Assembly (NCBI GenBank): GCA_016791475.1
Contig: JAEUWI010000010.1
Location: forward strand, 84,352 to 148,351
Origin: Candidatus Hydrogenedentota bacterium
GTDB lineage: Bacteria > Hydrogenedentota > Hydrogenedentia > Hydrogenedentales > JAEUWI01
Direction: 5' to 3'
Length of the DNA: 64,000 nucleotides
This document shows, piece by piece, positions 17,123 through 36,063 of the stretch. Each line of letters begins with the position of its first letter. Within the stretch, counting starts at the first letter, position 1. The notes beneath the pieces were generated by a model, which worked only from the letters and a program-made list of their open reading frames with translations, had not been told where the DNA came from and made no database searches. The translations under genes were made by a program, and so were the position numbers.

Positions 17123-17221
17123 GGGAACCGGCGAGTCCGGCTGTAGTGAGTCTTAACGGCAGCGGGGCCGTTGCCCGCGCGGGCACCGGAGTCGCTATAC
17201 AGAGAAAGGGCGAGGAGCACC

Positions 17222-17712: not shown

Positions 17713-19182
17713 ATGGCTGAAGCACTTGACGAAGGCGCATTGGAAGTAACCCAGATCGACAGCTTGATAGACTCTCAATTCAAGCCGAAGTCTTCCGCCG
17801 CCCGCGAAACCATACAGAAATCGATCAGCACCCTGGCGCGCCAGGCCCTCAAAGAGGGCGAAGTCGATCCCGCGGATCCCACGGCCACGATCAAATTCAT
17901 TATCAAGAGTCTGGATGACAAGCTCTCCGCGCAGGTGAACCAGATCATCCACCATGAGGATTTCCAGCGACTGGAAGGTTCGTGGCGCGGTCTCCAGTAT
18001 ATGGTCGCCAATACCGAGACGGACGAGCAACTGAAGATTCGCGTGCTGAACATCTCCAAGAAGGAAATTGGAAAGGTTCTCAAGAAATACAAAGGCACCG
18101 CCTGGGAACAGAGCCCCCTCTTCAAGAAGATGTACGAAGAAGAATACGGCACCCCCGGCGGCGAGCCCTTCGGCTGTATCGTGGGTGACTATGAATTCGA
18201 TCACAGCGCCCCCGATGTGGAAATTCTCCAGGGCCTTTCCCAGGTCGCGGCCGCGGCCCACACCCCCTTCATCGCCGCCGCCTCGCCAAAGCTGATGAAC
18301 ATGGATAGCTGGCAGGAACTCGCCAACCCGAGCGACATCAACAAGCTCTTCACCTCGCCGGAGTACGCCCCCTGGCGCTCCCTCCGCGAGTCGGAAGACG
18401 CGCGTTATCTGGGGCTTACCCTGCCGCGCTTCCTGTCCCGACTGCCCTACGGCGCCCAGACCAACCCAGTGGACGATTTCGATTTCGAGGAAGTGGTCAA
18501 TAACGACCAGTCCAATTTCACCTGGGCCAACGCGGCCTATGCCATGGGCGCAAACATCACTCGCTCCTTCAAGCTCTATGGCTGGTGTTCCCAGATCCGC
18601 GGCGTGGAAAGCGGCGGCTCCGTCGAGGGACTGCCCTGCTACACCTTTCCGACCGACGACGGCGGCGTCGACATGACCTGCCCGACCGAAATCGCCATCA
18701 CGGACCGCCGTGAAGCCGAGTTGGCCAAGTGCGGCCTGATGCCCCTGTCCTACTTCAAGAATACCGACTACGCCGTCTTCATCGGCGCACAGTCCCTTCA
18801 GAAGCCCCAGGAATACGACGATCCGGATGCGACGGCCAACGCGAACCTCAGCGCGCGCCTGCCCTATCTGTTTTCGACCTGCCGCTTCGCCCACTACCTT
18901 AAGTGCATCGTGCGCGACAAGGTGGGCTCTTTCGCGGAACGATCCGACATGGAAACCTGGCTCAACAACTGGATCCGCCAGTACGTCGAACCCGATCCCG
19001 CAAACGCGTCCAACGAAGCCAAAGCGCGTCGCCCCCTGGCCGCCGCCGAAGTCGTCGTGGCCGATGTGGAAGGCAATCCCGGCTATTACTCCGCCGTGTT
19101 TTACCTGCGCCCCCACTACCAGTTGGAAGGCCTGTCCGCCTCGTTGCGGCTCGTTTCCAAGCTCCCCACGGAAAAGGGCTGA
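17713..19182 (+). CDS. tssC: T6SS contractile sheath large subunit TssC (VipB)
   Basis: This is 489 residues, the standard VipB/ImpC length. Family features include an N-terminal helix ending in I-D-S-L-I-D-S-Q-F, then H-H-E-D-F-Q-R-L-E-G-S-W-R-G-L near residue 80, and L-P-R-F-L-S-R-L-P-Y-G near residue 237. It forms the bulk of the sheath, with TssB. It starts two bases after tssB with an overlapping ribosome site (GGAGG at the tssB end). A GC-rich hairpin lies between this gene and hcp. Confidence 0.96.
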   Translation: MAEALDEGALEVTQIDSLIDSQFKPKSSAARETIQKSISTLARQALKEGEVDPADPTATIKFIIKSLDDKLSAQVNQIIHHEDFQRLEGSWRGLQYMVANTETDEQLKIRVLNISKKEIGKVLKKYKGTAWEQSPLFKKMYEEEYGTPGGEPFGCIVGDYEFDHSAPDVEILQGLSQVAAAAHTPFIAAASPKLMNMDSWQELANPSDINKLFTSPEYAPWRSLRESEDARYLGLTLPRFLSRLPYGAQTNPVDDFDFEEVVNNDQSNFTWANAAYAMGANITRSFKLYGWCSQIRGVESGGSVEGLPCYTFPTDDGGVDMTCPTEIAITDRREAELAKCGLMPLSYFKNTDYAVFIGAQSLQKPQEYDDPDATANANLSARLPYLFSTCRFAHYLKCIVRDKVGSFAERSDMETWLNNWIRQYVEPDPANASNEAKARRPLAAAEVVVADVEGNPGYYSAVFYLRPHYQLEGLSASLRLVSKLPTEKG

Positions 19183-19347: not shown

Positions 19348-19839
19348 ATGGCAAACGCATTCTTCATGAAGATTGACGGGATCACGGGTGAATCCGAAGA
19401 CGAAAGTCACAAGGGCTGGCTTGAAATCACCGAGTTCGGCCAGGAAATGGCCCACGACATTGAAGGCGGCGGCACGCCCTCCGCAGCCGGCGGCTTCACC
19501 ACCGGCGGCGCCACCCTGGAAGTCATGAGCTTCAACAAGGCCATGGACCGCTCCAGCGTCCAGCTCTTTCAGTACTGTCTGACCGCCAAAGTGATTCCCA
19601 CCATCGTGATCGAGGCCGTCCGCCCCACGGAAAAGGCCGAGGTCTATTTCCGGATCACCCTCACCAACAGCATCATCGCCAGCATCAACACCACCGGCAG
19701 CGATGGTGAACTGCCCACGGAAGAAGGCTCTATCGCCTTCACCACCATCAAGTGGGAATACACCATGGTGAAGCCGGACGGCAAGATGGGCGATACCTTC
19801 AGCTCGACCTGGAACCGCCTGACCAACCGCCAGACCTGA
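19348..19839 (+). CDS. hcp: T6SS inner-tube protein Hcp (TssD)
   Basis: The protein has 163 residues, the normal Hcp length. It opens with A-F-F-M-K-I-D-G-I-T-G-E-S and contains the S-F-N-K-A-M-D-R-S-S-V-Q-L stretch and a C-terminal I-K-W-E-Y region typical of Hcp. Hexamers of Hcp stack into the secreted tube and chaperone some effectors. AAGGAG lies upstream of the ATG. Unlike its tightly packed neighbours, hcp has about 165-170-base gaps on both sides, each with a strong hairpin, as expected for a structural protein needed in high amounts. Confidence 0.95.
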   Translation: MANAFFMKIDGITGESEDESHKGWLEITEFGQEMAHDIEGGGTPSAAGGFTTGGATLEVMSFNKAMDRSSVQLFQYCLTAKVIPTIVIEAVRPTEKAEVYFRITLTNSIIASINTTGSDGELPTEEGSIAFTTIKWEYTMVKPDGKMGDTFSSTWNRLTNRQT

Positions 19840-20011: not shown

Positions 20012-20509
20012 TTGTACGTCCGCTACCTGCCATCACTGATGGATCGCCTGACCGACCAGGAGCCGGACCGGCGACTGGAGGCTCCCCGCCCGCAGGTCAT
20101 GAGCTTTCAAGAGTACCGGGCCGGTTTTCAGCGCGATCTCATGCGGCTCCTCTCCTATGGTCTTCAGCCCGATTCAGCCGAGTTTGCAGGTCATCCCGAG
20201 GTCCAGAGTTCCGTCCTCAACTACGGTATGCCCAACCTCCTCGGCATGGCCGACGTGGCCATGAAGCCCCAGTTGGTGGAGCAGGCCATTCGCGAAGCCA
20301 TCGCGCGATTCGAGCCTCGGGTGAATCGCGAAACGCTCCGCGTGCGCGTCTCCCCGGTGGAATCCGCCGGCGACACCGCCATGCGCAATCTGGATATTGA
20401 AATCAACGCCGAGCTGTGGGCAAAGCCCTATTCGGAGAATGTATACATTCTCACCAGCGTCGACATGCATAAGGCCAGCGTGGTCGTGAAGGAGTGGCGC
20501 AATGGATAG
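20012..20509 (+). CDS. tssE: T6SS baseplate protein TssE (gp25-like)
   Basis: This 165-residue protein has the GPW_gp25/TssE fold signature: L-P-S-L-M-D-R-L-T-D at the N-terminus, S-V-L-N-Y-G-M-P-N-L near residue 70, and A-I-A-R-F-E-P-R-V near residue 94. TssE is a lysozyme-like gp25 homologue of the baseplate wedge. The start is TTG at 20012 with GAGG eight bases upstream. The alternative ATG at 20039 would cut off the family-conserved L-P-S-L segment. Its 3' end overlaps tssF by 8 bases. Confidence 0.92.
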   Translation: MYVRYLPSLMDRLTDQEPDRRLEAPRPQVMSFQEYRAGFQRDLMRLLSYGLQPDSAEFAGHPEVQSSVLNYGMPNLLGMADVAMKPQLVEQAIREAIARFEPRVNRETLRVRVSPVESAGDTAMRNLDIEINAELWAKPYSENVYILTSVDMHKASVVVKEWRNG

Positions 20510-22382
20510 GATCTCCAACAGCCGCCGACGCCTGGACTACTACAACGAAGAGTTGCAGTATCTTCGGGAGATGGGGGAGGTCTTCGCACGGGAGAACCCC
20601 AAAGTCGCCGGGCGCCTCGGCCTCGATTCCTTCGAATGCGCCGACCCCTACGTCGAACGGCTGCTCGAAGGCGTCGCTTTTCTGACCGCCCGCGTCCGCA
20701 TGAAGCTGGACGACGAATTCCCCAACTTCACCCAAAGCCTCGTGGAGACGGTCTACCCTCATTACCTTTGCCCCACACCATCCATGACCGTGGTGCAGTT
20801 TCAGCCCGATTTCGCCGAGCCCTCCCTGGCCGAAGGGGTTACCATTCCCCGGGACACGGTGCTCCGCAGCGGTGGCGGCATTGGCGACGACTTCTCCTGC
20901 CAGTACCGCACGGGGCACGACGTGACGCTGTGGCCGATTATACTCACCGAGGCGGAATACTACACCCGGGAAATCAGCTCCCTGGGCCTGCCCGACCGGC
21001 GCGATGTGAGCGCCGGCATCCGGCTCCGACTCAAGACCATGGGGGGGCTGCTCTTCAGCGATATTGACCTGAACAGGCTCACGCTGTTTATTCGCGGCGG
21101 CGGCGATGTCGGCGCCCGGCTCTACGAAGCCATTTTTTCTCACGGCGTCGGCGCGGTCATGCGGCCCACCGGCAGCGCCCCGGCCTGGCAGCGCACGCTC
21201 TCTGCGGAACGGATTCGTCAGGTGGGTTTCGCCGATGAAGAACATCTCCTGCCCTATGGCTCCCGCTCCTTTCAGGGCTATCGTCTGCTCCACGAGTACT
21301 TCGCATTTCCGCAGCGCTACATGTTCTTCGAGATCGGCGGATTAAACAAGTTCATTGGCAGCGCCGTCACCACAGAGCTCGACATTTTTATTCTGCTCAA
21401 GCAGGGCGACCCGCGCCTCGAAAACGAAGTCGCTGCCAATAATTTCGTCCTGAATTGCGCGCCAGCCATCAATCTCTTCCCACTCGAACCGGATCGGGTC
21501 GACGTTTCGGACGCTGTATCGCGCTTCCACGTCGTGGGGGATCGCACCCGCCCACTGGACTTCGAGATCTACCAGATTAACCGAATCACCGGCTACGGAA
21601 CGCACATGGGCGACCGGCAGATTTTCGAGCCCTTCTACGCCGCCAAGGGCTACGATTCCGAAAGTCGCGCCTACTTCTCGACCCACCGGGTTCCCCGCCG
21701 TCTGAGCGAGCGCGAACTGAACCACGGTACCCGCTCGGGTTACGCCGGGAGCGAGGTCTATGTTTCCCTGGTGGACGCGGACGCGGCGCCCTACAACCCA
21801 GAAATCCGCCAGCTTGCCCTCGAAACCCTCTGCACGAACCGGGATCTGCCGCTCCTCATGCAGCCCGGCATGCTGAATTCCGACTTTACCATGGACGCAC
21901 ACGCCCCCGTAGAGGGCGTTCGCATCGTCGCCGGGCCCACATCGCCCCGAAGTTCCCTGGCCGAAGGCGCCTTCACCTGGCGCATTATCAACCACCTCTC
22001 CCTCAACTACCTGTCCCTGATGGACACCGAGGAGGGCGATGCCGCCTCCGCCCTGCGAGAATTGCTCGGGCTCTATGGCGCGGTCTCCGATCCCGGCACT
22101 CGCAAGCAGATCAACAGCCTCCGGCAGGTCCGAAGCGTGCCGATTACGCGCCGCGTTGAAGGACCGGGACAGATCGCCTTCGCCCGGGGCCTCGAAATCC
22201 AGGTGACGATGGAGGAAGAGTCGGTGGAAGGGGCGGGAACCTTCCTCCTCGGCGCGGTCCTCGAACGCTTCTTCGCCAAGCACGTATCGTTGAATTCCTT
22301 CACCGAAACGGTGATTCAAACCCCCGAACAAGGAGAGCTCAAGCGGTGGAAAGCGAGAATGGGACAGCGGAAGCTGGTATAA
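20502..22382 (+). CDS. tssF: T6SS baseplate protein TssF (VasA/ImpG)
   Basis: The protein has 626 residues, the usual TssF size. The N-terminus has Y-Y-N-E-E-L-Q-Y-L-R-E-M-G-E-V-F-A, followed by D-P-Y-V-E-R-L-L-E-G-V-A-F-L-T-A-R near residue 48 and L-V-E-T-V-Y-P-H-Y near residue 82; all three are VasA family landmarks. TssF with TssG and TssE makes the baseplate wedge. It overlaps tssE by 8 bases and tssG by 37 bases. Confidence 0.95.
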   Translation: MDRISNSRRRLDYYNEELQYLREMGEVFARENPKVAGRLGLDSFECADPYVERLLEGVAFLTARVRMKLDDEFPNFTQSLVETVYPHYLCPTPSMTVVQFQPDFAEPSLAEGVTIPRDTVLRSGGGIGDDFSCQYRTGHDVTLWPIILTEAEYYTREISSLGLPDRRDVSAGIRLRLKTMGGLLFSDIDLNRLTLFIRGGGDVGARLYEAIFSHGVGAVMRPTGSAPAWQRTLSAERIRQVGFADEEHLLPYGSRSFQGYRLLHEYFAFPQRYMFFEIGGLNKFIGSAVTTELDIFILLKQGDPRLENEVAANNFVLNCAPAINLFPLEPDRVDVSDAVSRFHVVGDRTRPLDFEIYQINRITGYGTHMGDRQIFEPFYAAKGYDSESRAYFSTHRVPRRLSERELNHGTRSGYAGSEVYVSLVDADAAPYNPEIRQLALETLCTNRDLPLLMQPGMLNSDFTMDAHAPVEGVRIVAGPTSPRSSLAEGAFTWRIINHLSLNYLSLMDTEEGDAASALRELLGLYGAVSDPGTRKQINSLRQVRSVPITRRVEGPGQIAFARGLEIQVTMEEESVEGAGTFLLGAVLERFFAKHVSLNSFTETVIQTPEQGELKRWKARMGQRKLV

Positions 22383-23407
22383 AGAACCGTCTCGCGAAGA
22401 AGCCCGGTTCGGCCAGTTTCTTTCAGGCCATCCGCCGGCTGGAAAGCGAGCGGCCCGGCAAGGCGCGCGTGGGTTATGCGCACCACCTCCACGACGAGGT
22501 CGTGCGCTTCAGTCAGCACATAGGCCTGACCTTCGAGGCGGGCTCCATCGATTCGTTCGAAGAGGGCGAGGGCGGCGCGCCACCCCGCATGAAGGTAAAT
22601 TTTCTCGGCCTTCTCGGGCCCAACGGCCCCATGCCCCTCAACTTCACGGAGTCGATCTACGAGCGCCTCCTTCATGACAAGGACCGGGCCCATCCCGAGT
22701 TCCTGGATGCCTTGCAGAGTCGCATCATTGCCCTGTTCCATCGGAGTTGGGCCGAGTGCCAGATGACCGCGTCCTACGAGCGCACCCGCCATGGCGCATT
22801 CTCCAAATACGTTTCAAGCCTGGTGGGTATCGGCGCGCCGGTCTTCCAGGAGCGTGACTCCATCCGCGACGACGCCAAGCGCTACTACTCCTCGTGGCTC
22901 GCGATGCAGACGCGCAACGCGGAGGGCCTCTGCGCGATACTCGGCGAATACTTCGGAACCCCCGCCGAAGTGGAAGAGTTCATCGGCCAGTGGCTCGACG
23001 TGCCCCATGACTGCCGCTGCCGCCTGGGCGAGACCCGCCTCACCGGAAAGATCGGGCAGAATCTCATCATTGGAAAGCGCTTCTGGGACCGGCAGCAGAA
23101 GTTTCGTATTCGCCTCGGGGCCATGGACTGGCAGCGCTATCTAAGCATGCTGCCTTCCGGCGATCGCCTGGAGCACTTGATCGACTGGGTGCGCAACTAT
23201 GTGGGCGAGGAACTCGAGTGGGACGTCTGCCTGATCCTGCGCCGCGAGGAAGTGCCCCAAATCTGCCTCGGGAGTCAGGGCCAATTGGGCTGGACCACCT
23301 GGCTGAAGGGCAGAAACTATGAGTTTGACCACGATCCCGCGGACTTGCGGATGGATAGAATGACCCTCGTGTCCTGGTTTCGCGAGTCGGCGCGCGCCCG
23401 GGCCTGA
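22346..23407 (+). CDS. tssG: T6SS baseplate protein TssG (VasB/ImpH)
   Basis: This 353-residue protein shows the TssG layout: S-F-F-Q-A-I-R-R-L-E-S near residue 19, F-L-G-L-L-G-P-N-G-P-M-P near residue 87 (the family's conserved G-x-x-G-P-x-G-x-L/M-P block), and a C-terminal half ending in W. It pairs with TssF. The start is a GTG inside the tssF end, with AGGAG about ten bases before it, so its translation probably depends on ribosomes finishing tssF. Confidence 0.94.
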   Translation: MESENGTAEAGIKNRLAKKPGSASFFQAIRRLESERPGKARVGYAHHLHDEVVRFSQHIGLTFEAGSIDSFEEGEGGAPPRMKVNFLGLLGPNGPMPLNFTESIYERLLHDKDRAHPEFLDALQSRIIALFHRSWAECQMTASYERTRHGAFSKYVSSLVGIGAPVFQERDSIRDDAKRYYSSWLAMQTRNAEGLCAILGEYFGTPAEVEEFIGQWLDVPHDCRCRLGETRLTGKIGQNLIIGKRFWDRQQKFRIRLGAMDWQRYLSMLPSGDRLEHLIDWVRNYVGEELEWDVCLILRREEVPQICLGSQGQLGWTTWLKGRNYEFDHDPADLRMDRMTLVSWFRESARARA

Positions 23408-23450: not shown

Positions 23451-25577
23451 ATGCCTAGAACACAAGATACCCGTTGGGCCAGCATCGCCACGCCATTGGG
23501 AAAAGACAAACTGCTCTTCCGGCGCATGGCCGGTGTGGAGGAATTGGGCCGTATCTTCCAGTACGAAGTGGAGCTGTGCAGCGAAGACCCCAACATTACC
23601 TTCGATCAGATTATCGGCCAGAACGTCACCGTCCGCATGAACTATTCGGATTCGGGCGCGCGATATATCAATGGCGTCATCAACCGCTTCGCCCGAACCC
23701 AGGAAGTCGAAGACCTGACCTACTACCAGGCCACCATCGTACCCACGCTCTGGTTCCTAACGCGCACCCGGGATTGCCGCATCTTTCAAAACAAGGACGC
23801 CGTCGCCATCATCAAGGAGATCCTCGGTGAACAGGGCATCTCCGATGTCGAGTACAAGCTGGGCAGCGTCACCTATCCCAAGCGCGAATTCTGCGTCATG
23901 TACCGTGAGTCCTACTTCGACTTCATCAGCCGCCTCATGGAGCAGGAAGGCATCTATTACTACTTCAAGCATGTGGACGGCGTACACACCCTGGTGCTGA
24001 TCAACGCGTCCAGCCTCCACGAGGCCATTCCCGGCTACGAGACCATGAAGTTCGTCCTGAAGGACAAAGGCTCCATCGAACAGAACAGCATCTTCTACTG
24101 GATCGAGATGGGCCAGTTCGAGAGCGGTCGATTTGTCTACGCGGATTTCAACCCCAAGACGCCAAAGAGCGTGCTTAAGGCCCAGTCGGAGATTGCCCGT
24201 GCGAACGCCAAAGCCAATCTGGAGCGCTTCGACTATCCCGGCCAGTTCACGGTGGCGGCGGACGGCACCAATTACGCAAAAAACCGCATCGAAGAGTTTC
24301 AGGCGGATTACCAGACCTTCCGCGGCGAGTGCGTAATTCGCGGCACAGCCTGCGGCGCGCTTTACGCCATGACGGACTACCCGCTGGCGTCCCAGAATAC
24401 CGACTACATTATCACCTCCACAACCATCAACGTGGTGGGGGAGGACTACACCTCCACGCCCATCGAGGGCCAGAAGCTGGACCCCTTCAAGTGCAGCTTC
24501 ACAGCCATCCGGAAAACGGCCCAGTTCCGCAGCCAGAGCCTGACCCCCAAGCCCTTCGTCCATGGACCCCAGACCGCCATTGTCGTGGGTCCAAGCGGCG
24601 AAGAAATCTACACGGACGAGTATGGGCGCATCAAAGTCCAGTTTCACTGGGATCGCTACGGAAAGGCCGACGCCAACAGCTCCTGTTTCATTCGCCTCGC
24701 CCAATCCTGGGCCGGAAAAAACTGGGGCGCCGTCGTCCTGCCCCGCATAGGGCAGGAAGTCGTGGTCGAGTTCCTCGAAGGCGACCCCGACCGTCCCATC
24801 GTTGTCGGAGCGCTGTACAACGAGGAGAACAAACCACCCTACGAACTGCCGACCAATATGACCATGTCGGTCATGAAAAGCAGCTCCAGCAAAGGCGGCG
24901 CGGGCTTCAATGAGATTCGATTCGAAGACAAGAAAGACAGCGAGCAGATCTTCGTTCACGGCCAGAAGAATTTCGACAAGAGAATTCTGAACGATTCCTT
25001 CGCCTGGATCGGCAACGACCACCATCTTCAGGTAATTAACGATCGCAAAGAAAAGGTCGATAACGACAAACACGAGACCGTCGGGCGAGACCACATCGAG
25101 ACCGTCACCCGCGACCACAACCTCACGATTAAGGGCAAGGAAGCGATCAAAGTGACCGGCACCCACAGCCACACCGTCGAAGGTGACGTCATTCAAGTGT
25201 ACAAGGCGAACCAGTCCACCGAAGTAACAGCGGACTACTACCTGAAAGGTGACAACATCGTCATCGAGGCCGCGACCAATATCACGGTCAAGGTGGGAGA
25301 TTCTTACATCGCCATTGAATCCAGTGGCATCACCATCGGCACCACGGGAAAAATCGAGCTCAAGGCCGACGGCGACATCACCATTGAATCCGGCGGAAAC
25401 ACCGAAGTCACGGCCACGGGAGATGCCGCCATCGAGGCGACCGGCAAGGGCTCGTTCAAAGGCACCGGCGGTCTCGCGTTGGAGAGTCCCGCGACCTCCG
25501 AGCTCAAAGGCGCCTCCACGACCGTCAGCGGTGATGGCAGCCTGACCCTCAAAGGCGGTGCCGTGGCAATAAACTAG
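23451..25577 (+). CDS. vgrG: T6SS spike protein VgrG (TssI)
   Basis: The 708 residues form a standard VgrG. The gp27-like base covers about residues 1-370, including V-T-V-R-M near 60 and the Y-R-E-S-Y-F-D-F-I-S-R-L-M-E-Q-E-G region near 150. A gp5-type OB fold spans about 380-460, with D-E-Y-G-R-I-K-V-Q-F-H-W-D-R and the E-V-V-V-E-F-L-E-G-D-P-D-R-P motif. A repetitive beta-prism needle (I-x-I-x-x-G-x-I-like repeats) runs to the end. I see no extra enzymatic domain, so cargo is probably carried non-covalently. The next gene encodes an accessory protein whose Ig-like domain is common in VgrG neighbourhoods. Confidence 0.96.
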   Translation: MPRTQDTRWASIATPLGKDKLLFRRMAGVEELGRIFQYEVELCSEDPNITFDQIIGQNVTVRMNYSDSGARYINGVINRFARTQEVEDLTYYQATIVPTLWFLTRTRDCRIFQNKDAVAIIKEILGEQGISDVEYKLGSVTYPKREFCVMYRESYFDFISRLMEQEGIYYYFKHVDGVHTLVLINASSLHEAIPGYETMKFVLKDKGSIEQNSIFYWIEMGQFESGRFVYADFNPKTPKSVLKAQSEIARANAKANLERFDYPGQFTVAADGTNYAKNRIEEFQADYQTFRGECVIRGTACGALYAMTDYPLASQNTDYIITSTTINVVGEDYTSTPIEGQKLDPFKCSFTAIRKTAQFRSQSLTPKPFVHGPQTAIVVGPSGEEIYTDEYGRIKVQFHWDRYGKADANSSCFIRLAQSWAGKNWGAVVLPRIGQEVVVEFLEGDPDRPIVVGALYNEENKPPYELPTNMTMSVMKSSSSKGGAGFNEIRFEDKKDSEQIFVHGQKNFDKRILNDSFAWIGNDHHLQVINDRKEKVDNDKHETVGRDHIETVTRDHNLTIKGKEAIKVTGTHSHTVEGDVIQVYKANQSTEVTADYYLKGDNIVIEAATNITVKVGDSYIAIESSGITIGTTGKIELKADGDITIESGGNTEVTATGDAAIEATGKGSFKGTGGLALESPATSELKGASTTVSGDGSLTLKGGAVAIN

Positions 25578-26378: not shown

Positions 26379-26521
26379 ATGGGGATCGTTCAAGGGCTTG
26401 GGTGACGGGTTGAAACGGGCTTGGGTCCCGATTTCTCCCAGGTGTGGACCGGGTCCGGGGCCAATGCTGCTTAAAGGCACCCGGACGAACGCGGATCGTG
26501 CAGGATAATGCGAAGGAGAAC

Positions 26522-27139
26522 GTGTTGTATCGTTGGGCTCTAGCTGCAAATTCAAAGGCCAGTGTGGCCCCATTTGCCCGGCTGGGCGCGGGAGTTATTC
26601 GCGCGCTGTTGTTGCTCGTCGCGCTGTTCCTTTTAGTGGGTATGCCCGGATGCGCATCAAAAAAACGCGATGCCTTTAACGTGAAATTGACCATGGATGT
26701 CGACACCTTCCGAAACGAAAAAACCGGCGAGCTCCCCTCCATTGACGTGGATGTATTCGCCGCGAACGCCTCGGAAGACGGCATCATGAAGACCATGAAG
26801 GTGGGTGAGTATTTCGATACAAACAATCCCTATCGCCAGGGCGTGGGCGCCTTCAGTTCCCGCTTCACCAATCAGGACTCCTCGCCCAAGAAGCTTTCCC
26901 GACGCAGCAAATATTGGGATGACTGGAAGCGCAAAGGCGCCCGCACCGTATACGTAATCGCAAACCTGCCGCGGAAGCCGGGAGAAAGCCCGGAGTTGGT
27001 GCAGACCCGCTCGGTGCTCGCCCTGCCGCTGGACCGGAGCGCGTGGCCCAATGGATTTTTCACGCCGCGCACGAAAACCCTGAGCGTGTTGATTCAGCCC
27101 AGTGGACTGGTTTGTGAAACCACCCAGCGGCGGCAGTGA
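26522..27139 (+). CDS. tssJ: T6SS outer-membrane lipoprotein TssJ
   Basis: From the GTG at 26522 this is 205 residues. A hydrophobic leader ends in G-M-P-G-C (Cys44), an acceptable lipobox, and the mature part begins with A-S-K-K-R. The body has TssJ-like beta-sandwich features: F-N-V-K-L-T-M-D-V-D near the start of the mature protein and V-Y-V-I-A-N-L-P in the second half. TssJ anchors TssM to the outer membrane. AAGGAG lies three bases before the GTG and six before an alternative TTG at 26525. An upstream ATG at 26444 would give an overlong, charged leader. Confidence 0.82.
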   Translation: MLYRWALAANSKASVAPFARLGAGVIRALLLLVALFLLVGMPGCASKKRDAFNVKLTMDVDTFRNEKTGELPSIDVDVFAANASEDGIMKTMKVGEYFDTNNPYRQGVGAFSSRFTNQDSSPKKLSRRSKYWDDWKRKGARTVYVIANLPRKPGESPELVQTRSVLALPLDRSAWPNGFFTPRTKTLSVLIQPSGLVCETTQRRQ

Positions 27140-27217: not shown

Positions 27218-28594
27218 ATGACGCAGCATATCCATTGGCATGAAGGGCTCTTCCTCCAGCCCCACCACATGCAGCAGATGCAACAGAACATCATCACCCA
27301 GATCCGCTCCGAGCGTCGTCTAGGCTTTACCTATCCCTACGGCGTCATAGAATCCGAACTTTCCGAAGACGCCCTCCGCAATCTCCTCGTTCAGTTCAAG
27401 CATCTCCGTGTCGTCATGCCCAGCGGAACCGAGGTGGACTATCCCTCCAGCGCGGATGTGCCCCCCCTGAACCTCCAAAACGTCTTTGACTCCGGCGCGG
27501 AATCCGTGACCGTCATGATCGGCGTCCCGCTCTGGGACCCCAACGGCGCCAACGTCGTCACCGCCGAGGGCAACGAGGGCTGGAAAAGCCGCCGCATCTA
27601 CAAGCTCAACGAAATCGAGCGGCCCGATGAAAATACCGGCGTCCATTCCCATCCCATGCTCGTGCGTCGCATCAATGCCCGCCTGCTCCTCAGCACCGAC
27701 GACATCGGCGGCCTGGAAGTCCTCCCCCTCGTGCGGATCACCCGGTCCACCGCCGACAGCGCGGGCCTGCCGAGCCTCGATCCCCTCTTCATACCGCCGT
27801 GTCTCCTGCTTCATGGTTACGCGCCGCTCATGGCAATCGTTCGCGATCTCTCCAATCAGGTCGATGCTAACCGGCGCGACCTGGTCACGCGCGTCTCCCG
27901 CGGCGGTACTCGTGGCGAGACTTCCCGCGAGTCCAAGTTCCAGTCGGAGCACATCTTCTTTCTCCAGACCCTCAATAAGTTCAGCGGCCGCCTCTCCACA
28001 CTCATCAAGGCGCCCGGCGTCACGCCCTTCGACATGTATCTGGAGCTGCGCGACCTGCTCGGCGAACTGGCCACCCTCGTGCCGGGCTACGACGCCATGG
28101 AAGTGGCGGCCTACGACCACGACCGGCCCGCCGTCGTGTTCCGCGAGTTGAGCGACAAGATTCGCGAACTGCTCGCCCTCATCGCCAACCAGAAATTCCG
28201 CCGCGTAGAATTCCGCGAGGAAGACGAGATCTACGTGGCCGAACTCACGGTCGTGAACCTTACCGAGGCTTCCGTCTGCTATCTCGCCGTGGAGACCGAA
28301 GAAGACCCTCGCACCCTCGTCAAGCTCGTCGAGGCCCAGGACCGCTTCAAGGCCATGGCCAGGAGCAACATTCACCAACGCGTGCGCGGCCTGACCCTGC
28401 GCGAAGAGCGCGAAGTGCCCCTGGATCTCCCCGCGAAGCCCGGCCTGCATTACTTCCGCATCGACCCCGAAGACAACCGCGCCCTCTGGCGCCGCATCAT
28501 CGTGGAAAACACCATGGCCATCCGATTCACCGTGTCGGAGCCCGTGGACTACAAGTTCACCCTCTACACCACCTACAGCGACGTGGGGGAGTAG
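27218..28594 (+). CDS. tssK: T6SS baseplate/membrane-complex linker TssK
   Basis: The protein has 458 residues and the unmistakable TssK N-terminus: H-W-H-E-G-L-F-L-Q-P-H-H-M-Q-Q, close to the start. The rest follows the family, including the L-R-D-L-L-G-E-L-A block near residue 275. TssK trimers connect the baseplate to TssL and TssM. It is followed by tssL after three bases. Confidence 0.96.
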   Translation: MTQHIHWHEGLFLQPHHMQQMQQNIITQIRSERRLGFTYPYGVIESELSEDALRNLLVQFKHLRVVMPSGTEVDYPSSADVPPLNLQNVFDSGAESVTVMIGVPLWDPNGANVVTAEGNEGWKSRRIYKLNEIERPDENTGVHSHPMLVRRINARLLLSTDDIGGLEVLPLVRITRSTADSAGLPSLDPLFIPPCLLLHGYAPLMAIVRDLSNQVDANRRDLVTRVSRGGTRGETSRESKFQSEHIFFLQTLNKFSGRLSTLIKAPGVTPFDMYLELRDLLGELATLVPGYDAMEVAAYDHDRPAVVFRELSDKIRELLALIANQKFRRVEFREEDEIYVAELTVVNLTEASVCYLAVETEEDPRTLVKLVEAQDRFKAMARSNIHQRVRGLTLREEREVPLDLPAKPGLHYFRIDPEDNRALWRRIIVENTMAIRFTVSEPVDYKFTLYTTYSDVGE

Positions 28595-28597
28595 GCC

Positions 28598-29323
28598 ATG
28601 AACCTGGTGCAACTGACCGAGCCCCTTTTCCTCTACGTGGGTTGCCTCACCCGCGCCGCGGAGCACAAGACCGAGTTTGACGTCGAGCAGGTGCGGCGCG
28701 AGATCATCGGCATCTTCGCCGACATCCGCATCAAGGCAGAGGCCCACCCTTCGCTGGCCTACCAGTACGATCGCACCATCAATCTGATTCTCATTTTCTA
28801 CGTCGATTTCATGATCAAGGAAAGCGACCTGAACATCGCCCGGGAATGGGTGGAGCTGGCCTTCGACGAACAGGAACTCGCCGGTGACGAGCAGTTCTTC
28901 GATTTGCTGGAGCAGACCCTTTCTCAGAACACGGAAGTGGCCCTGCAACAACTCACTGTGTTCCGCGAATGCCTCCGCCTCGGCTTCACCGGTTGCTACA
29001 GCGATGACTGGAAATACATCCGCCAGTTGCACAGCGACATCGACGCCAAAGTCTTCGGCGACCGCTTCGAGCTCTCCGCCCAGTTGACCCCCACGGCCTA
29101 CGAGCACATCGACGAACAGCCTCTGGTCACCCGACCCCTGAAGCGCTATAAGCACGTGCGCTGGGCCCTCATCGCCGCGATTCTGGCCGTGCTGGGGACC
29201 AACGTTTACCTTTACTACTCCAGCTCCGGAGAGTTGCGTCGCACCCTGGACAGCATCACCGAATTTGCCGATGGCGAGACCGCCAAGATGCTCAAACCCG
29301 CTGGCGCGGTAGTGCAGGAGTAA
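28598..29323 (+). CDS. tssL: T6SS inner-membrane protein TssL (DotU family, short form)
   Basis: This 241-residue protein has the DotU cytoplasmic helical bundle (E-P-L-F-L-Y-V near the N-terminus, F-Y-V-D-F-M-I-K-E-S near residue 68, E-C-L-R-L-G-F-T-G-C-Y near 126) and a single C-terminal transmembrane segment at about 188-206. A short periplasmic tail follows with no OmpA-like peptidoglycan-binding domain, so wall anchoring must come from another protein. It sits between tssK and tssM, with tssM starting after six bases. Confidence 0.93.
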   Translation: MNLVQLTEPLFLYVGCLTRAAEHKTEFDVEQVRREIIGIFADIRIKAEAHPSLAYQYDRTINLILIFYVDFMIKESDLNIAREWVELAFDEQELAGDEQFFDLLEQTLSQNTEVALQQLTVFRECLRLGFTGCYSDDWKYIRQLHSDIDAKVFGDRFELSAQLTPTAYEHIDEQPLVTRPLKRYKHVRWALIAAILAVLGTNVYLYYSSSGELRRTLDSITEFADGETAKMLKPAGAVVQE

Positions 29324-29329
29324 CCGCGC

Positions 29330-32300
29330 GTGAATCCGATTGGTAAAATATACGGCTTCATGGAAGAAATCGGGGATTGGCAGTTCCTGATTATTCCGGT
29401 AATCGCTATTATCGGATTGGTGACGGACACCTTTTCCTGGTTTCCGGATTGGCTCCAGACGCCACTCATAATCCTCGTCATCCTCGTCGCGATCGGCAGC
29501 CTGATCTACTTTTGTGTCAAGAACTGGCGGCGCTGGCGGGCAAAAAAAGCCGCCGCCGAAGTCCCGACCGATGGCGCCGTGCCGGAAGAGGAAGTTCCCT
29601 CGATCTCCGACGACGAGTTTCGCCGCGAACTCGCCCGCAAGTTCGACAAGGGCGTCGCCGATCTCGCCAGCTTCCGCAAAGATCCCTACAAGCTGCCCCT
29701 CTACCTGGTGGTGGGGGAAAAGGGCTGCGGCAAGTCCGAGGCCATCCGCCGCAGCGGCATAGGCTTCCCCGCAGGCCTCACCGACACAACGCAGGGCGTG
29801 GGCGGCACCCATGTCCTCGACTGGTGGATTACCAACAAGGCCGTGCTCCTCGATCTGCCCGGCGCCCACTTCTTCGGGCGTGGCGGCGCCTCCGAAGCCC
29901 GCGCGTGGAAGCTCCTCCTCAAGCACATCGCCGATTTTCGGCCCGCAAGCCCGCTCAACGGCATCATCCTCGCCATCTCCGCCGAGACGCTGCTGAACGA
30001 CAGCGACGAGGACGTTAACACCAAGTCCGCGCGACTCGTGGAGCATTTCGAGAATGTCCACCGCGCCCTCGGCACCCAGGTGCCCGTCTTCGTCATGGTC
30101 ACCAAGAGTGATCGGCTCTGTGGCTTTCTGGAGTACTTCTCCGACCTGAAAGAAGGCGGCAACCGCGACCAGATCTTCGGCTGGTCCAATCCCGATTCCC
30201 TGGAGACGCCCTTCAGCCCGGAAAAATTCCGCACCGATATCGACGGTGTCTTCAGTCGGCTCCGGGGCCGCCGCGATTCGCTCCTCCAGTATTCCATCGA
30301 ATCCAAGAGCCTGGCGTACAAGCGCCGCGTGCAGGTAAACCATCTCTACGAGTTCCCCCGGAGTTTTCAAGTTACCGCCCGCCGCCTGGGAACCTACCTG
30401 GAACGCATTTTCGAGCCGGACTCCTGGTACTGCGCGCCCTTCTTCCTTCGCGGCGCCTACTACACGTCCGCCATCCAGCGCGATACCGAGCTGGATCCGT
30501 CGCTGGCCAGGGCCCTTTCGAAACCCCTCGCGGAGCTGCCCGCCGCCGAAACGCGCCACACCGAAGACAGCTATTTCCTCAAGGAAATGCTCAACGACAA
30601 GGTCTTCTGCGAGGGCGGCCTGGTCACGTGGAAGCAGGACCCCCGCTATCAGCGCAAGCGCGCCCGCGCCCGGCTCGTCATGGCCTGCCTCGGCCTGCTG
30701 GTCTGCCTCTTTGCCTACATGATGTGGGAGTCCAACCAGTGGCGCAATGACATGGAGCAGATGCGCCAGAATTGGACTGTGGTGAATACCTGGCTGGCCA
30801 AGAGCGACGCCATCGTGACCCCCGGAAGCGGCGTGGACTATGAGTACAATGGCGACCTGAATGTGGATCTCGCGGGACTGAAGCTCCCCGAAGAGTACGC
30901 CTCGGGCGTATTGATGGCCCGGCTGCCGGAAGTCATGGAAAACCACTGGGTGCGGGAAGTCAGCACGCCCTGGGTCTTCAAGCCCTTCGATCTGGTCAAT
31001 CGCCGCCTCCGCACCGACATGCTGGATGCCTACCGCGGCATCTTTGAGTATCGCTACGTGGCGCCCCTCGCCGTCGCGGCTCAGGATCGCATCGTCAAGG
31101 AAGAGCCCGTCTGGCGCGACGAAGCAACATACGCCCTCGGGCAGCTTCTGCGTATCGAAGCCATGACCGAGGACGGATTCGCACCCGACCTCGGCTCCCA
31201 GGGCCGCAAAGTCGAGCTGAATAGCTTCCTCGCCTATGCCGTCGAGGACAAAGCCCAGTACGCGGAGCACGACAAGTTCTACAACGAATACGTCAAAGAC
31301 CTCTACGACCCGCCCACATCCCAGGCCTGGCCGCCGGAGATTTTCTTCGAAGCCGGAGCCAGGGAACGCCTCCATGCGGCGGTAGACAGCGGTACAACAC
31401 AGTTCAAGAAGCACATAGACACCTATGTATCCGAAGGCGCGGCCTTTGCCGATCTTCGTGCGCTGTTCACCGCGCTGACCGATTTCCACGACGCTGAGTC
31501 CCTCCTCTGGAAGAACGCCCAGGAGGGTGGCAACCCCGATAGCGTCCATGAGATCGATGTCATTCTCGCGTCGTGGCGCGAAGACGTTGAGAAGCTGACC
31601 GAGAAGCGCAAAGCACTGGATGAAGTCATCACCCGCCTCTTCACTGATCGCGAAGTAGACATTAAGAAGCTCTGCGAGGACGAGCGGGAAAAAGTCCAGG
31701 ACAAAGTCAACAGCGACTATCGTATTCTCACCCAGGAGCTCGACAAGGTCGTGCCCATCAAGGTGGACGAGACCGGCCTGCACATACAGGATGTGAAAAA
31801 CCGGCTCGCCGCCGACAAGACCTCGACGGATGCCCTCGTGACCCAGTCTGTCGACAAGTTCCTGGCCGATTTCGACGCGCTCCGCGCCGACCGCGAATTT
31901 CTCGCCAAGACCGACTTTCAGGACATGCGCGGCTACCAGTTGCGCAACCACGTCTATGGATTCCTTCAAGAATCGGACTATGTTGTCGGCGAAGATGTGT
32001 ACGATCCCTTCGATTACCTCCTCGACCTCGAAGAGCTCCAGAAGGCCTTCGACGAGAGCGTGCGCAACATCGCCGATTTCGATACGAACTCGGACAGCTT
32101 CAACAGCGGCCGGGAAGCCGCCGAGGCCATGCTTGCGCTGATCTACCGCCAGCAGCGTTTCAAGGTCGTGGCGCAGATCGTGGAAGCGCTCCCGATCAAT
32201 ACCTCCGACTTCGCCCGCCTCGTGGCCTCACGCGTCGAGGCCCAGTGGCTGGAGCGGCCCGAAGTTCCCCTCACGCCGACCGGCGAAATGCAGCAGTTCG

Positions 32301-34624
32301 ACGATGGATTCAACACCGAAGTGGTCTATGACCTCCTGACACTCTGGTCACACATGAAGGAAATTCTGGGCCAGGAAAAGCTTGGAAAAGACGCCCTGCC
32401 CGACATCGAGCGGCTTCAGCGCAGTTTCAAGGAAAAAAATCAGGTCTTTAACAACTACATTACCGAGTATGTGAACTACTGGTCGCGCATGGTCGACCAG
32501 AACACCGAAATGGTCCAGTACGCCACCTGGAAGGAATTCCACGCGGAGCTGAACAATCTGGAGGTGTACAACGTCAACCACAAACTGCGCATGCTCTACG
32601 AGACCGCGCTTTATGCGGTAGATATCGTGCCCGACACCCACCCCGGCCAGACGGACGCCCACTTGGACCTCTCCCTCAAGCTCAAGGGCCTCGGCGAGGA
32701 CTTTGACGCGGAATGCCTGCGCATTCTAAACGCGTGGAAGGCCATCGAGAAAATCGATCGCGATGTGGTGAACAACATCCTCGTCATGAAGGCCGACGCC
32801 TTCAAGAGCGGCTACCTGTCCCTCCTGGACAACAGTGTGAACAAGGCCAACTTCGCCTTCTGGACCAGCCTCTGCACCCAGGCCGTCCGCCTTCTGGCCG
32901 ACGAGGGCGAGCACCTGTCCCGCTACTACCTCGTGAATCTGGCCACGCGCTATAGGGGCTTCCCCCTTATCAACGACACCGCCACGCCGCCCCTGACGCC
33001 GGAGCAGTTCGACGAGGCCGTGGAACTGGTGCGCCATATCAAGCAGCCGCCGAAGCCCGAAAAAGCGGAATCCCTCATGACCGGCGAACGAACCGGCTGG
33101 CCCGACGTGGACAAGGAAATCGATCGACTCCAGGGCGACAAGGTCATCCGCACGGAATACGAGCGCGAATGGTTCGACCAAATCGTGGCCGTGATGGATT
33201 TCATCGGCGGCGACACGCCCCTGACCTGCGAACTGGTGATCCTGCCCCGCGAAATGCAGGAAAAGCGCCCCCCGCGTTTCCCGGAGCCCATGCCCACCAG
33301 CAAGGTCTATGGCGCCGCGCCCTGGGTCTACCGCTACATGCGGATCAACGGCGAAGCCTTCAATACCGAACCCACAACCTATGTGGTGGGCGAGGCGGCC
33401 AAGACCTATCCGCTGGCACCGGTGTCCAACAAGCTCGCGCTGCACTTCTACTACACGTCCGAGGATCTTAATCCCGGGGTGAACAGCTTCGCACGCCCAA
33501 GCGGCGTGGGGGGGCTGGAAATGGACTGGCTTCCCATCGTCGTGCTGCACATGGGCGACTCCGTCGTGCTGGAAGACAAAATGACCTGCGCCGTGCCCTT
33601 CCGCGTGGTGGACAATGCCGAGCACAAGGACAGCGAGTACTACTATTGGCTCGGCTTCAAGTTTAACAAGGAAATCCCCGATCGCAAGGGCTGGCCCTCG
33701 GCCTACAACTGGCCCAGCCTGCGCCGTATGCCCCGTGCTCTGGGCGACTCCTATCCCGAAGAAGCGGAGGGTAGCCAGTTCATCAATCCCGACGCGCCCC
33801 TGCTGCCCCTGGTTCGCGAAGAAGGGATTCCCGAGCCGGTTCAGACCAATGCCACGTCGGTGCAGGTCAGCGACAAGATCAAGGAAGTGATGATAACCGG
33901 TTCGGGCGACACCGCCCCCCCTGCGGCGCCTGCGCCGGCTCCCGAAGTGACGCCGTTGCCCGCCCCGGAGCCCGCGCCAACCGTCGCACCGGCATCCACC
34001 GGAACCGCGCCCATGCCCAATGGCGCCTACAGTTACAAGCCCGCCGCCGAATCGCCCCGCGTGTTTACCCTGGACAATCCAAGCACCCCGGTTCGCGGGG
34101 GAGAAGTGCCACAGACCGTTCCGGTAGAAGCTTCGCCCCAGCCCGATCTGGATGTCGCCCACGCGCCAGCCGTCGAAGCATCTGCGCCCGACTACACGCT
34201 TCCGGGTGAAATCCCGCCAGCAACCCAATCTGAGCCTGCTGTGGCGCGCTCGTTCCAGCAGGCGCCTGCGCCTGCCCCCGCCACGGCCCCGGTTGCGACG
34301 GCACCCGCGCCTCAACCCGCCATGCCCGCCGTGCGCACCGAGCCCATCAAGCGCCCGCCGGCGATTGTGCCCGCACCGGAGCGGCCGCTCTATACCACCG
34401 AGGTGACCTTCACCACGCCCCGCGAACCTGCGAACGGCGCAGCGCCCGAGCCACCGATCATTGGCGCACCCTCCGCTCCCGCCGCGAGCCGCGATGCGGT
34501 CGCCGATCCCTATTCCGAGAGCACCGGTCCGGGCTATGGCGGCAAGAAGAGTAAAAAAAAAACCGATCCGGGCCTGGATCCCCCGCAGGAGCGACGAGTA
34601 AGCCGGGGCCGACCGGACCGGTAA
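29330..34624 (+). CDS. tssM: T6SS inner-membrane NTPase-like protein TssM (IcmF), with long Pro/Ala-rich tail
   Basis: The 1764 residues exceed the usual TssM length of about 1100-1300. Two N-terminal transmembrane segments (about 15-63) precede the cytoplasmic domain, which has a Walker A motif G-E-K-G-C-G-K-S near 127-134. A third transmembrane segment (about 447-466) leads to a large periplasmic region. From about 1525 the protein is Pro/Ala-rich and probably disordered. The start is GTG with AGGAG nine bases upstream. Near the end a run of ten A (34553-34562) is read as K-K-K. After it this frame gives only 21 Arg/Pro-rich residues before its stop, while the -1 frame stays open into three Ig-like domains, so the true product may be longer. 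Confidence 0.93.
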   Translation: MNPIGKIYGFMEEIGDWQFLIIPVIAIIGLVTDTFSWFPDWLQTPLIILVILVAIGSLIYFCVKNWRRWRAKKAAAEVPTDGAVPEEEVPSISDDEFRRELARKFDKGVADLASFRKDPYKLPLYLVVGEKGCGKSEAIRRSGIGFPAGLTDTTQGVGGTHVLDWWITNKAVLLDLPGAHFFGRGGASEARAWKLLLKHIADFRPASPLNGIILAISAETLLNDSDEDVNTKSARLVEHFENVHRALGTQVPVFVMVTKSDRLCGFLEYFSDLKEGGNRDQIFGWSNPDSLETPFSPEKFRTDIDGVFSRLRGRRDSLLQYSIESKSLAYKRRVQVNHLYEFPRSFQVTARRLGTYLERIFEPDSWYCAPFFLRGAYYTSAIQRDTELDPSLARALSKPLAELPAAETRHTEDSYFLKEMLNDKVFCEGGLVTWKQDPRYQRKRARARLVMACLGLLVCLFAYMMWESNQWRNDMEQMRQNWTVVNTWLAKSDAIVTPGSGVDYEYNGDLNVDLAGLKLPEEYASGVLMARLPEVMENHWVREVSTPWVFKPFDLVNRRLRTDMLDAYRGIFEYRYVAPLAVAAQDRIVKEEPVWRDEATYALGQLLRIEAMTEDGFAPDLGSQGRKVELNSFLAYAVEDKAQYAEHDKFYNEYVKDLYDPPTSQAWPPEIFFEAGARERLHAAVDSGTTQFKKHIDTYVSEGAAFADLRALFTALTDFHDAESLLWKNAQEGGNPDSVHEIDVILASWREDVEKLTEKRKALDEVITRLFTDREVDIKKLCEDEREKVQDKVNSDYRILTQELDKVVPIKVDETGLHIQDVKNRLAADKTSTDALVTQSVDKFLADFDALRADREFLAKTDFQDMRGYQLRNHVYGFLQESDYVVGEDVYDPFDYLLDLEELQKAFDESVRNIADFDTNSDSFNSGREAAEAMLALIYRQQRFKVVAQIVEALPINTSDFARLVASRVEAQWLERPEVPLTPTGEMQQFDDGFNTEVVYDLLTLWSHMKEILGQEKLGKDALPDIERLQRSFKEKNQVFNNYITEYVNYWSRMVDQNTEMVQYATWKEFHAELNNLEVYNVNHKLRMLYETALYAVDIVPDTHPGQTDAHLDLSLKLKGLGEDFDAECLRILNAWKAIEKIDRDVVNNILVMKADAFKSGYLSLLDNSVNKANFAFWTSLCTQAVRLLADEGEHLSRYYLVNLATRYRGFPLINDTATPPLTPEQFDEAVELVRHIKQPPKPEKAESLMTGERTGWPDVDKEIDRLQGDKVIRTEYEREWFDQIVAVMDFIGGDTPLTCELVILPREMQEKRPPRFPEPMPTSKVYGAAPWVYRYMRINGEAFNTEPTTYVVGEAAKTYPLAPVSNKLALHFYYTSEDLNPGVNSFARPSGVGGLEMDWLPIVVLHMGDSVVLEDKMTCAVPFRVVDNAEHKDSEYYYWLGFKFNKEIPDRKGWPSAYNWPSLRRMPRALGDSYPEEAEGSQFINPDAPLLPLVREEGIPEPVQTNATSVQVSDKIKEVMITGSGDTAPPAAPAPAPEVTPLPAPEPAPTVAPASTGTAPMPNGAYSYKPAAESPRVFTLDNPSTPVRGGEVPQTVPVEASPQPDLDVAHAPAVEASAPDYTLPGEIPPATQSEPAVARSFQQAPAPAPATAPVATAPAPQPAMPAVRTEPIKRPPAIVPAPERPLYTTEVTFTTPREPANGAAPEPPIIGAPSAPAASRDAVADPYSESTGPGYGGKKSKKKTDPGLDPPQERRVSRGRPDR
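34553..34562 (+). other. A10 homopolymer at the tssM 3' end: frameshift, slippage or sequence-error site
   Basis: Ten consecutive A bases lie inside tssM, read as AGT AAA AAA AAA ACC. A TAA in the -1 frame (34552-34554) abuts the run, and that frame is then open from 34555 to 35700. Runs of nine or more A are known sites of transcriptional slippage in bacteria, and A-AAA-AAA is also a -1 ribosomal slippery sequence. A missing A in the assembly would look the same. Confidence 0.8.
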
Positions 34625-34713
34625 CCGTCGTCGAGACCCGGTCGCCGATCAAGAAAGATGATCGGCGCCTGTCCAATCCCGCCATTCTGAACCAGTATGA
34701 CCGCCCCAAGATT

Positions 34714-35700
34714 GTGGTGCGCCAGGCTCCGGACCAGCCCGATCCGACCAATCAGTTTCCCATCTACTTCGACATCAAAATCGACGAGCCCGTGGTGGAT
34801 TTCCCCACGGGCGCCAACGCTCCCGGCATTGTATTGTCGGGCACGGCTTCTGGCCTGCGCTATAGGGTCGAGGGCGAGCGCGACACCTACCGCGTCGCCA
34901 TCCTTTCCGCCGAGCACGACGGTACTATCGAGGTCAGCGTGCCCGATGGGCTGTGCGCCGACCTCTTCGGCAATCTCAATGTTCCCTCTACGGCCGAAGA
35001 CGCCAGTGTCGTCTTTGATGGATCGCGACCCACCTGTCTCGTCCACAGCGAGGCCGCCGGTGTGGTCAACAACGCCACCATGGAAATCGCGCTGGGCTTT
35101 TCCGAGCCCGTATTCGGACTGAAAGACGAAAGCCTCTCCGTTGGCAACGCCGAGCTCAAGCGCAAGGCAGGGGCCGATGGCGATGCCATCTATCTCTTCT
35201 CCGTTACCCCCGCACAGGACGGTACGATCGCATTCCAGATTCCGGAAGATGTGGCGCACGACGCCGTCGGCAATGGCAACGAGGCATCGCCCGCCTTTTC
35301 GATTGTGGTGGACAGCGCCGGCCCGGTGGTCGCCCTCACGTCCTTCGAGACGCCTGGCGCCAGCAATGCCCGCCTCATTCGCGTGCGCGCGGAGTTCAGC
35401 GAGCCCGTACAGGGATTCGAGCGGGGCGATGTCGCCGTCGCCTATGGGAAAATGATCAATTTCTCCGCCGAGCCGGATGGCAAGACCTTCATCATCGATA
35501 TGCGTCAGGATCGGGGGCCCGTAACCCTGTCCATCCCGGCCGGGGTGGCCACGGACCAGATTGGAAACCCAAACCTCCCTTCGGAACCTTTCCACCGGGA
35601 CTACGGGCCCGCCCGGCGCACGCCCGTGGAGGTGGAGCCCGATGTCTCAGCGCCGCCCCTCATTGGACGTCCCCAGAGTGCCGTCACCCGCAATCCATAA
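34714..35700 (+). CDS. Three tandem bacterial Ig-like (Big_12-type) domains; probable C-terminal extension of TssM
   Basis: The frame is open from 34555 to the stop at 35698-35700 (381 codons), but its first start codon is GTG at 34714, which has no ribosome site. The 53 codons before it read as protein-like sequence and use the same GC-rich third positions. Three repeats contain F-S-E-P-V or I-D-E-P-V, then D-G-T-I/V-x-x-x-V/I-P, then a D-x-x-G-N motif, the pattern of Big_12-type domains often found in surface proteins. There is no signal peptide, yet such domains normally act outside the cytoplasm. Fusion to TssM, whose C-terminal region is periplasmic, would solve this. A stand-alone cytoplasmic protein is the less likely reading. 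Confidence 0.7.
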   Translation: MVRQAPDQPDPTNQFPIYFDIKIDEPVVDFPTGANAPGIVLSGTASGLRYRVEGERDTYRVAILSAEHDGTIEVSVPDGLCADLFGNLNVPSTAEDASVVFDGSRPTCLVHSEAAGVVNNATMEIALGFSEPVFGLKDESLSVGNAELKRKAGADGDAIYLFSVTPAQDGTIAFQIPEDVAHDAVGNGNEASPAFSIVVDSAGPVVALTSFETPGASNARLIRVRAEFSEPVQGFERGDVAVAYGKMINFSAEPDGKTFIIDMRQDRGPVTLSIPAGVATDQIGNPNLPSEPFHRDYGPARRTPVEVEPDVSAPPLIGRPQSAVTRNP

Positions 35701-35724: not shown

Positions 35725-36063
35725 ATGGGTCTAAGACAACGGGCCAGAGAAGCCTTCGAAGCCCGACAGGAAGAGATTCTCGCGGAAAAGATTCGGACAA
35801 CCCGACAGATTCTCCGGGAGCGCTTCGGTGTAAAGGAAGAGGAGATGGACACCTTCGAAGCCGCTTCCATCGGCCTCTGCGGTGCCGATAAGACGATCCG
35901 CATTGAAGATTTGCTCTTTATGGTAGACGACGCCGGCCGGCTTCACGTCCGCGATCAGCGTGCCACCTGGCACACCGACGAACCCTGGAAACCCATAGAG
36001 TCCCTGGCGGATCTGGGCCAGATCGCCGCCCAATCCACCGTCCAGACGACACCGAGAATATGA
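35725..36063 (+). CDS. Small uncharacterised protein at the end of the T6SS block
   Basis: This has 112 residues and I do not recognise its family. The N-terminal about 45 residues are a charged helix (R-Q-R-A-R-E-A-F-E-A region, then L-R-E-R-F-G-V). A compact segment with I-R-I-E-D-L-L-F-M-V-D-D-A-G-R-L-H-V-R follows, which looks like beta strands. No signal peptide or membrane segment is seen. AAAGGA is well placed upstream of the ATG and the gene starts 25 bases after the Ig-like frame stops, so it is probably co-transcribed with tssM. Confidence 0.6.
   Translation: MGLRQRAREAFEARQEEILAEKIRTTRQILRERFGVKEEEMDTFEAASIGLCGADKTIRIEDLLFMVDDAGRLHVRDQRATWHTDEPWKPIESLADLGQIAAQSTVQTTPRI

Follow-up and report, generated by a model that had tools for sequence, protein, structure and literature searches.

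Whether one gene of a type VI secretion system (T6SS) could give rise to two lengths of the same membrane protein is the question raised by a run of ten adenines inside tssM in a 64,000-nucleotide stretch of a Candidatus Hydrogenedentota genome (hereafter the window; coordinates without a contig label are positions within it). The original prediction for this locus held that slippage at the run would produce two TssM forms, with and without an immunoglobulin (Ig)-like extension, and named a one-base assembly error as the plain alternative. We compared the locus with three other species of the genus, each represented by a separate assembly (G001, G002 and G003, with the window genome as G000); the two-form proposal survives these sequence tests, while the assembly error is rejected. 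Based on this analysis we propose, with a probability of roughly 0.7, that the run acts as a programmed site of transcriptional slippage within tssM of this Hydrogenedentota T6SS, which would yield a short TssM together with a minority product, TssM-Ig.

A ten-adenine run in tssM leads into a second open frame

The window lies on contig C10 of a 7.7-Mb genome assembled in 529 contigs, and pattern searches found just four tracts of ten or more As in that whole genome, the tssM run included. The tssM gene (29330..34624, plus strand, 0 frame) encodes a short form of 1764 residues that scores 160 bits against PF14331 (cut-off 25), and it has orthologues in G001, G002 and G003. The A10 run, the proposed slippage tract, occupies 34553..34562 on the plus strand, exactly where it had been placed. 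In the 0 frame it reads AAA AAA AAA, followed by TDPGLDPPQERRVSRGRPDR and a stop; this tail (34562..34624, plus strand, overlapping the −1 frame) is short and rich in Arg and Pro, as had been described, and comprises 20 residues rather than 21. The T ahead of the run forms with the first two As a TAA (34552..34554, plus strand) that closes the −1 frame immediately upstream, and from 34555 that frame is open at once for 381 codons to 35700 on the plus strand, encoding the Ig-like extension of the predicted long form. SGPGSPAGATSKPGPTGPVTVVETR and LSNPAILNQYDRPK are example peptides that would be unique to this −1 product, and AAGAAGAAG is a synonymous version of the run.

No start of its own could be assigned to the −1 frame in the window. 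It contains no ATG among its first 80 codons, the span over which this part of the prediction was checked, and GTG first occurs at codon 54 (34714), where nothing resembling a Shine-Dalgarno sequence precedes it. By inspection, the Ig-like frame also lacks a signal peptide, in agreement with what had been noted.

The junction is conserved across the genus

A protein search of 60 related genomes returned orthologues of the −1 product only in the other three genus members, the more distant matches being other Ig-like proteins. The open frames of these orthologues span 385, 464 and 466 residues, far too short for a fusion with tssM. In all four species tssM reads KKK at the run, with its stop 15 to 23 codons beyond, and the Ig-like open frame lies in the −1 frame relative to tssM; the run is A9 in G001 and A10 in G000, G002 and G003, each time preceded by NNT, and the T that belongs to the closing TAA is kept throughout. 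No invariant block in the alignment of the junctions is longer than the T with nine As. Protein identity to the window is 65–68% for tssM and 51–62% for the Ig part, and the synonymous sites of tssM are near saturation (proportion of synonymous differences, pS, 0.52–0.71); therefore, recent descent alone does not account for the retention of the run. Among invariant Lys columns of tssM outside the run, only about one in 30 uses AAA in all four species, compared with three of three within it. With so few tracts of ten or more As in the window genome, the recurrence of the run in every species of the genus, at the same place and with an unchanged offset of the frames, is more than chance.

Two of the genus genomes are public metagenome-assembled genome (MAG) records, JAJRPE010000012.1 and JAUIMA010000028.1, which come from different isolates and carry contig names of the k141_ and NODE_ types.

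The −1 frame is under protein-level selection from the run onward

In the codons that follow the overlap and precede the first start codon of the window frame, the ratio of nonsynonymous to synonymous proportions (pN/pS) is 0.40 for the −1 frame, against 1.4 for either of the others; in the Ig part the values are similar, 0.43 and about 1.5, respectively. Where the −1 frame overlaps the tssM tail, synonymous change is reduced and its pN/pS rises to 0.88, which is expected of sequence that codes in two frames. Therefore, by the measure of codon substitution, the −1 frame is under protein-level selection up to the part that it shares with tssM.

At 34592–34610 and in the orthologues, the motif RR-V/M-x-RGR is common to the 0-frame tails and PGP to the −1 frame, both over the invariant sequence CCGGGGCCG; given these shared motifs, both frames may be constrained after the run.

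The start-codon survey extended to the relatives agrees with the window: the Ig-like frame of G001 has no ATG, GTG or TTG in its first 80 codons. Homologues in which the Ig-like gene has its own signal peptide and start were looked for and not found, and the survey together with the pN/pS values by frame led us to reject an own start for the Ig-like gene.

The extension consists of Ig-like domains

The Ig-like region covers approximately 34705..35600 on the plus strand, and comprises a first module and two stretches of Big_12, as judged from Pfam and a structure model. Three Big_12-type repeats had been predicted, which is borne out only in part; two stretches are significant in Pfam (PF19078, 63.3 bits, cut-off 27), whereas the first module, at about residues 51–155 of the extension, has no Pfam match and is predicted by the structure model as a beta domain with moderate confidence (block predicted local distance difference test score, pLDDT, mostly 64–86). 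The extension of G002 scores 151 bits over three PF19078 stretches against the same cut-off, and it is by scoring above this curated cut-off that the extension counts as a Big_12 bacterial Ig-like region. In total, three Ig-like domains are predicted in the window and about four in two sister species. A Foldseek search with the Ig model gave weak matches only, none with E below 0.001, with invasin-like Ig adhesins and antibody chains on top, and a search of the literature for TssM with Ig-like domains found nothing relevant.

A second poly-A junction interrupts a TPR gene

All 22 sites of nine or more As in G000 were inspected by their open frames, and besides the tssM run a single further site was found to join two coding frames. 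At C21:79882-79891 a small TPR protein, which begins MADIWDIARY and ends MADIWDIARYVE...KKKTV before the stop, has a tract of ten or more As at its end, and the −1 frame continues for 368 more codons with a CxxC...CxxC motif and hydrophobic segments. The orthologous run is A10 in G001 (C19:12522) and G002 (C199:12864) and A9 in G003 (C156), and the extension is offset by −1 in three species and by +1 in G003. In 50 other genomes of the order this protein occupies one open frame of 456–604 residues, and in two additional ones it is interrupted by a contig end; in L096, L102, L103, L109 and L111, whose sequences were read, TPR continues directly into the CxxC motif, and there is no tract of nine or more As. 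By this comparison, the genus interrupts an otherwise unbroken TPR protein at a poly-A tract in all four species. With a pN/pS of about 0.74 the extension is under looser constraint than the TPR part.

The whole G002 genome contains exactly two A10 tracts, namely the tssM and TPR junctions. None of the remaining tracts of nine or more As in G000 clearly joins two coding frames, and the other tracts of ten or more As in G001 and G003 were ruled out as junctions by their open frames or translations. An in-frame A10 was observed in G003 (C296:8833-8842) within an open frame that spans 760 codons or more, where slippage would shorten part of the product.

The surrounding T6SS cluster

Within the T6SS cluster tssM adjoins tssK and tssL, and all the cluster genes listed here lie on the plus strand. 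Pfam matches identify tssA (15827-17122), tssB (17171-17710), tssC (17713-19182), hcp (19348-19839), a tssE-like gene for a gp25 protein (20012-20509), tssF (20502-22382), tssG (22346-23407) and vgrG (23451-25577). A probable lipoprotein gene at the tssJ position (26444..27139) shows a GMPGC lipobox by inspection and no family match, and is followed by tssK (27218..28594, PF05936) and tssL (28598..29323, PF09850), which is short, consists of DotU only and, as had been noted, lacks a wall-binding domain. A small gene directly 3′ of the Ig-like frame (35725..36063, plus strand) is present in all four species; its only match in NCBIfam is a weak one to the C-terminus of the HopBF1 kinase family (19.6 bits, cut-off 200). 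On the minus strand, next to the cluster, a frame of 4195 codons is open from an ATG (2989-15576).

The TssM family PF14331 was found in four of 68 genomes of the phylum, all four in this genus, and in none of the 64 others in this search, which was confined to the phylum; therefore, the phylum offers no outgroup with an in-frame TssM-Ig. In the species alignment the conserved block of tssM ends near residue 1520 and a Pro-rich linker follows, and because of this arrangement the TssJ-binding domain is plausibly whole ahead of the A run.

Discussion

We propose that the run would stay at ten As in most transcripts, whose product would be a TssM with a basic tail that stops 20 residues past the run, while a minority would gain one A (or lose two) and be read as a single long protein, in which TssM is followed by the linker and the Ig-like domains. 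As no signal peptide was seen in the Ig part itself, it would be carried by TssM, and fusion to TssM would be its simplest route out of the cytoplasm; that TssM would bring the extension into the periplasm follows from its topology in model systems. The rate of slippage, for which we infer RNA polymerase as the slipping machine, would set the ratio of plain to Ig-armed TssM. In our preferred picture the arm of three or four Ig-like domains could reach further into the envelope, in a proportion tuned by the tract, and it may have a tethering or stabilising role there.

Two features of programmed slippage genes are found here, namely a coding sequence that contains a homopolymer (A or T) of at least about nine bases and an out-of-frame continuation that the gain or loss of As would restore, kept by purifying selection in all four species. 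In many bacterial genomes runs are evidently selected against once they reach a length of nine (PMC1088944), and therefore A9 and A10 tracts fit transcriptional slippage. Several observations weigh against this proposal. No relative of the C-terminal half of TssM could be detected in Pfam, NCBIfam or solved structures, so that TssM is only plausibly complete before the run; its match to the full-length equivalog profile TIGR03348 (NCBIfam) reaches 243 bits, below the cut-off of 388, and covers profile positions 34–470 only, and TssM is identified by its N-terminal IcmF-related domain and its locus only. An AlphaFold model of the C-terminus was unusable (mean pLDDT 33), and sequence searches of solved structures gave nothing useful. 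Moreover, the A9 of G001 is shorter than the A11 of Citrobacter rodentium, the run contains the ribosomal slippery heptamer A AAA AAA, and the tract could also vary in length at the DNA level.

In tssM1 of the C. rodentium CTS1 system an A11 tract slips in transcription, giving cDNA with 10–15 As and 20–25% frameshifting, and both TssM forms and their ratio are required; tssM3 of the Yersinia pseudotuberculosis T6SS-3 slips likewise, and the tssM survey of the same authors reported no further case (Gueguen et al., 2014, PMC4256274). As in C. rodentium, the poly-A tract of this genus lies inside tssM close before the 0-frame stop, and two lengths of TssM are expected from one gene. However, the A11 precedes the TssJ-binding C-terminal domain and slippage there restores the canonical protein, whereas the A9 or A10 described here lies past a Pro-rich linker at the far C-terminus, where slippage would add Ig-like domains; the present case also belongs to another phylum and is conserved in four species. 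The Y. pseudotuberculosis gene likewise has a poly-A tract and two length variants, but there the long form is what the unslipped frame encodes and slippage produces the shorter one, while here the unslipped frame encodes the short form. Through slippage in transcription, nine-A tracts also give two products or join two open reading frames in Thermus thermophilus dnaX and in A9 fusions of insertion sequence (IS) elements (PMC1088944), which are different genes, whereas an Ig-like module on a secretion-system membrane protein is concerned here. As far as sequence comparison can tell, the event is of the same kind as the published tssM slippage, and what is new is its position in the protein, the addition of Ig-like domains, the phylum and the genus-wide conservation.

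The same two proteins could arise from a uniform mRNA by programmed −1 ribosomal frameshifting on the heptamer, which is in frame in all four species, with a tssM shift that is always −1. We regard this as unlikely, since the 100 nucleotides downstream fold no better than shuffled sequences in three species (z −0.08, 0.77 and −0.06) and only slightly better in one (−1.53), no stable or conserved RNA structure of the stimulatory kind was found downstream, and no conserved Shine-Dalgarno-like element was seen by eye upstream of the run in the four-species alignment. The run also exceeds the length that the heptamer needs, and the TPR gene of G003 requires +1 rather than −1, an offset that favours RNA polymerase, because the polymerase both adds and drops As, while it would be hard to explain by a fixed ribosomal −1 site. 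Phase variation, whereby replication slippage would change the tract in the DNA and cells would switch between TssM and TssM-Ig, draws on the mutability of homopolymer tracts and on the presence of both A9 and A10 among the species. Nevertheless, all eight loci in the assemblies (four tssM, four TPR) are out of frame, for which the chance would be about 4% if one tract length in three were in frame, and the tssM offset is an identical −1 in every species; this explanation is improbable.

Still less credit can be given to the Ig-like frame as a separate gene, started on its own or by re-initiation after tssM. GTG and ATG codons do occur near the tssM stop in G002 and G003, but in the survey described above G001 lacked any start within 80 codons and the window had no start earlier than codon 54, the preceding codons there being under selection in the −1 frame; a separate gene would also lack a signal peptide and would leave the conservation of the A run without a reason. 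Frameshifts at poly-A tracts are known to be rescued in AT-rich endosymbionts, and the TPR gene does resemble an ancestrally unbroken gene that was interrupted in this genus, so the junction might be a tolerated accident, an ancestral frameshift rescued by low-level slippage whose two forms have no value. This genome, however, is large and GC-rich, and the out-of-frame state has survived near-saturated synonymous divergence although single-base changes of the tract could restore the frame, which renders such an accident very improbable. As to a one-base assembly or sequencing error, with tssM and the Ig-like domains in truth an ordinary single frame, homopolymers are error-prone and all four genomes are drafts of many contigs; yet the three relatives show the same out-of-frame A9 or A10 in separate assemblies, and the contig names of the two public MAGs point to different assemblers, by which an error is practically eliminated.

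Slippage in tssM has been reported as uncommon so far, with two Enterobacterales cases, in Citrobacter and Yersinia (PMC4256274). A genus-wide case that would add an accessory module, instead of repairing the core protein, suggests that two lengths of TssM are useful in themselves, and the genus provides a comparative system for why they are made; the TPR gene, unbroken in the rest of the order, provides a natural before-and-after case for the origin of slippage genes. More tentatively, and at somewhat less than even odds, poly-A slippage may be a recurrent device of this genus, which would tune the Ig-armed share of TssM and, separately, split a TPR/zinc-ribbon/membrane protein that is conserved across the order into two forms, one short and soluble, the other long, membrane-anchored and made by slippage. 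If so, a whole lineage of an uncultured, GC-rich phylum would be using transcriptional slippage to attach or omit envelope modules at the C-terminus.

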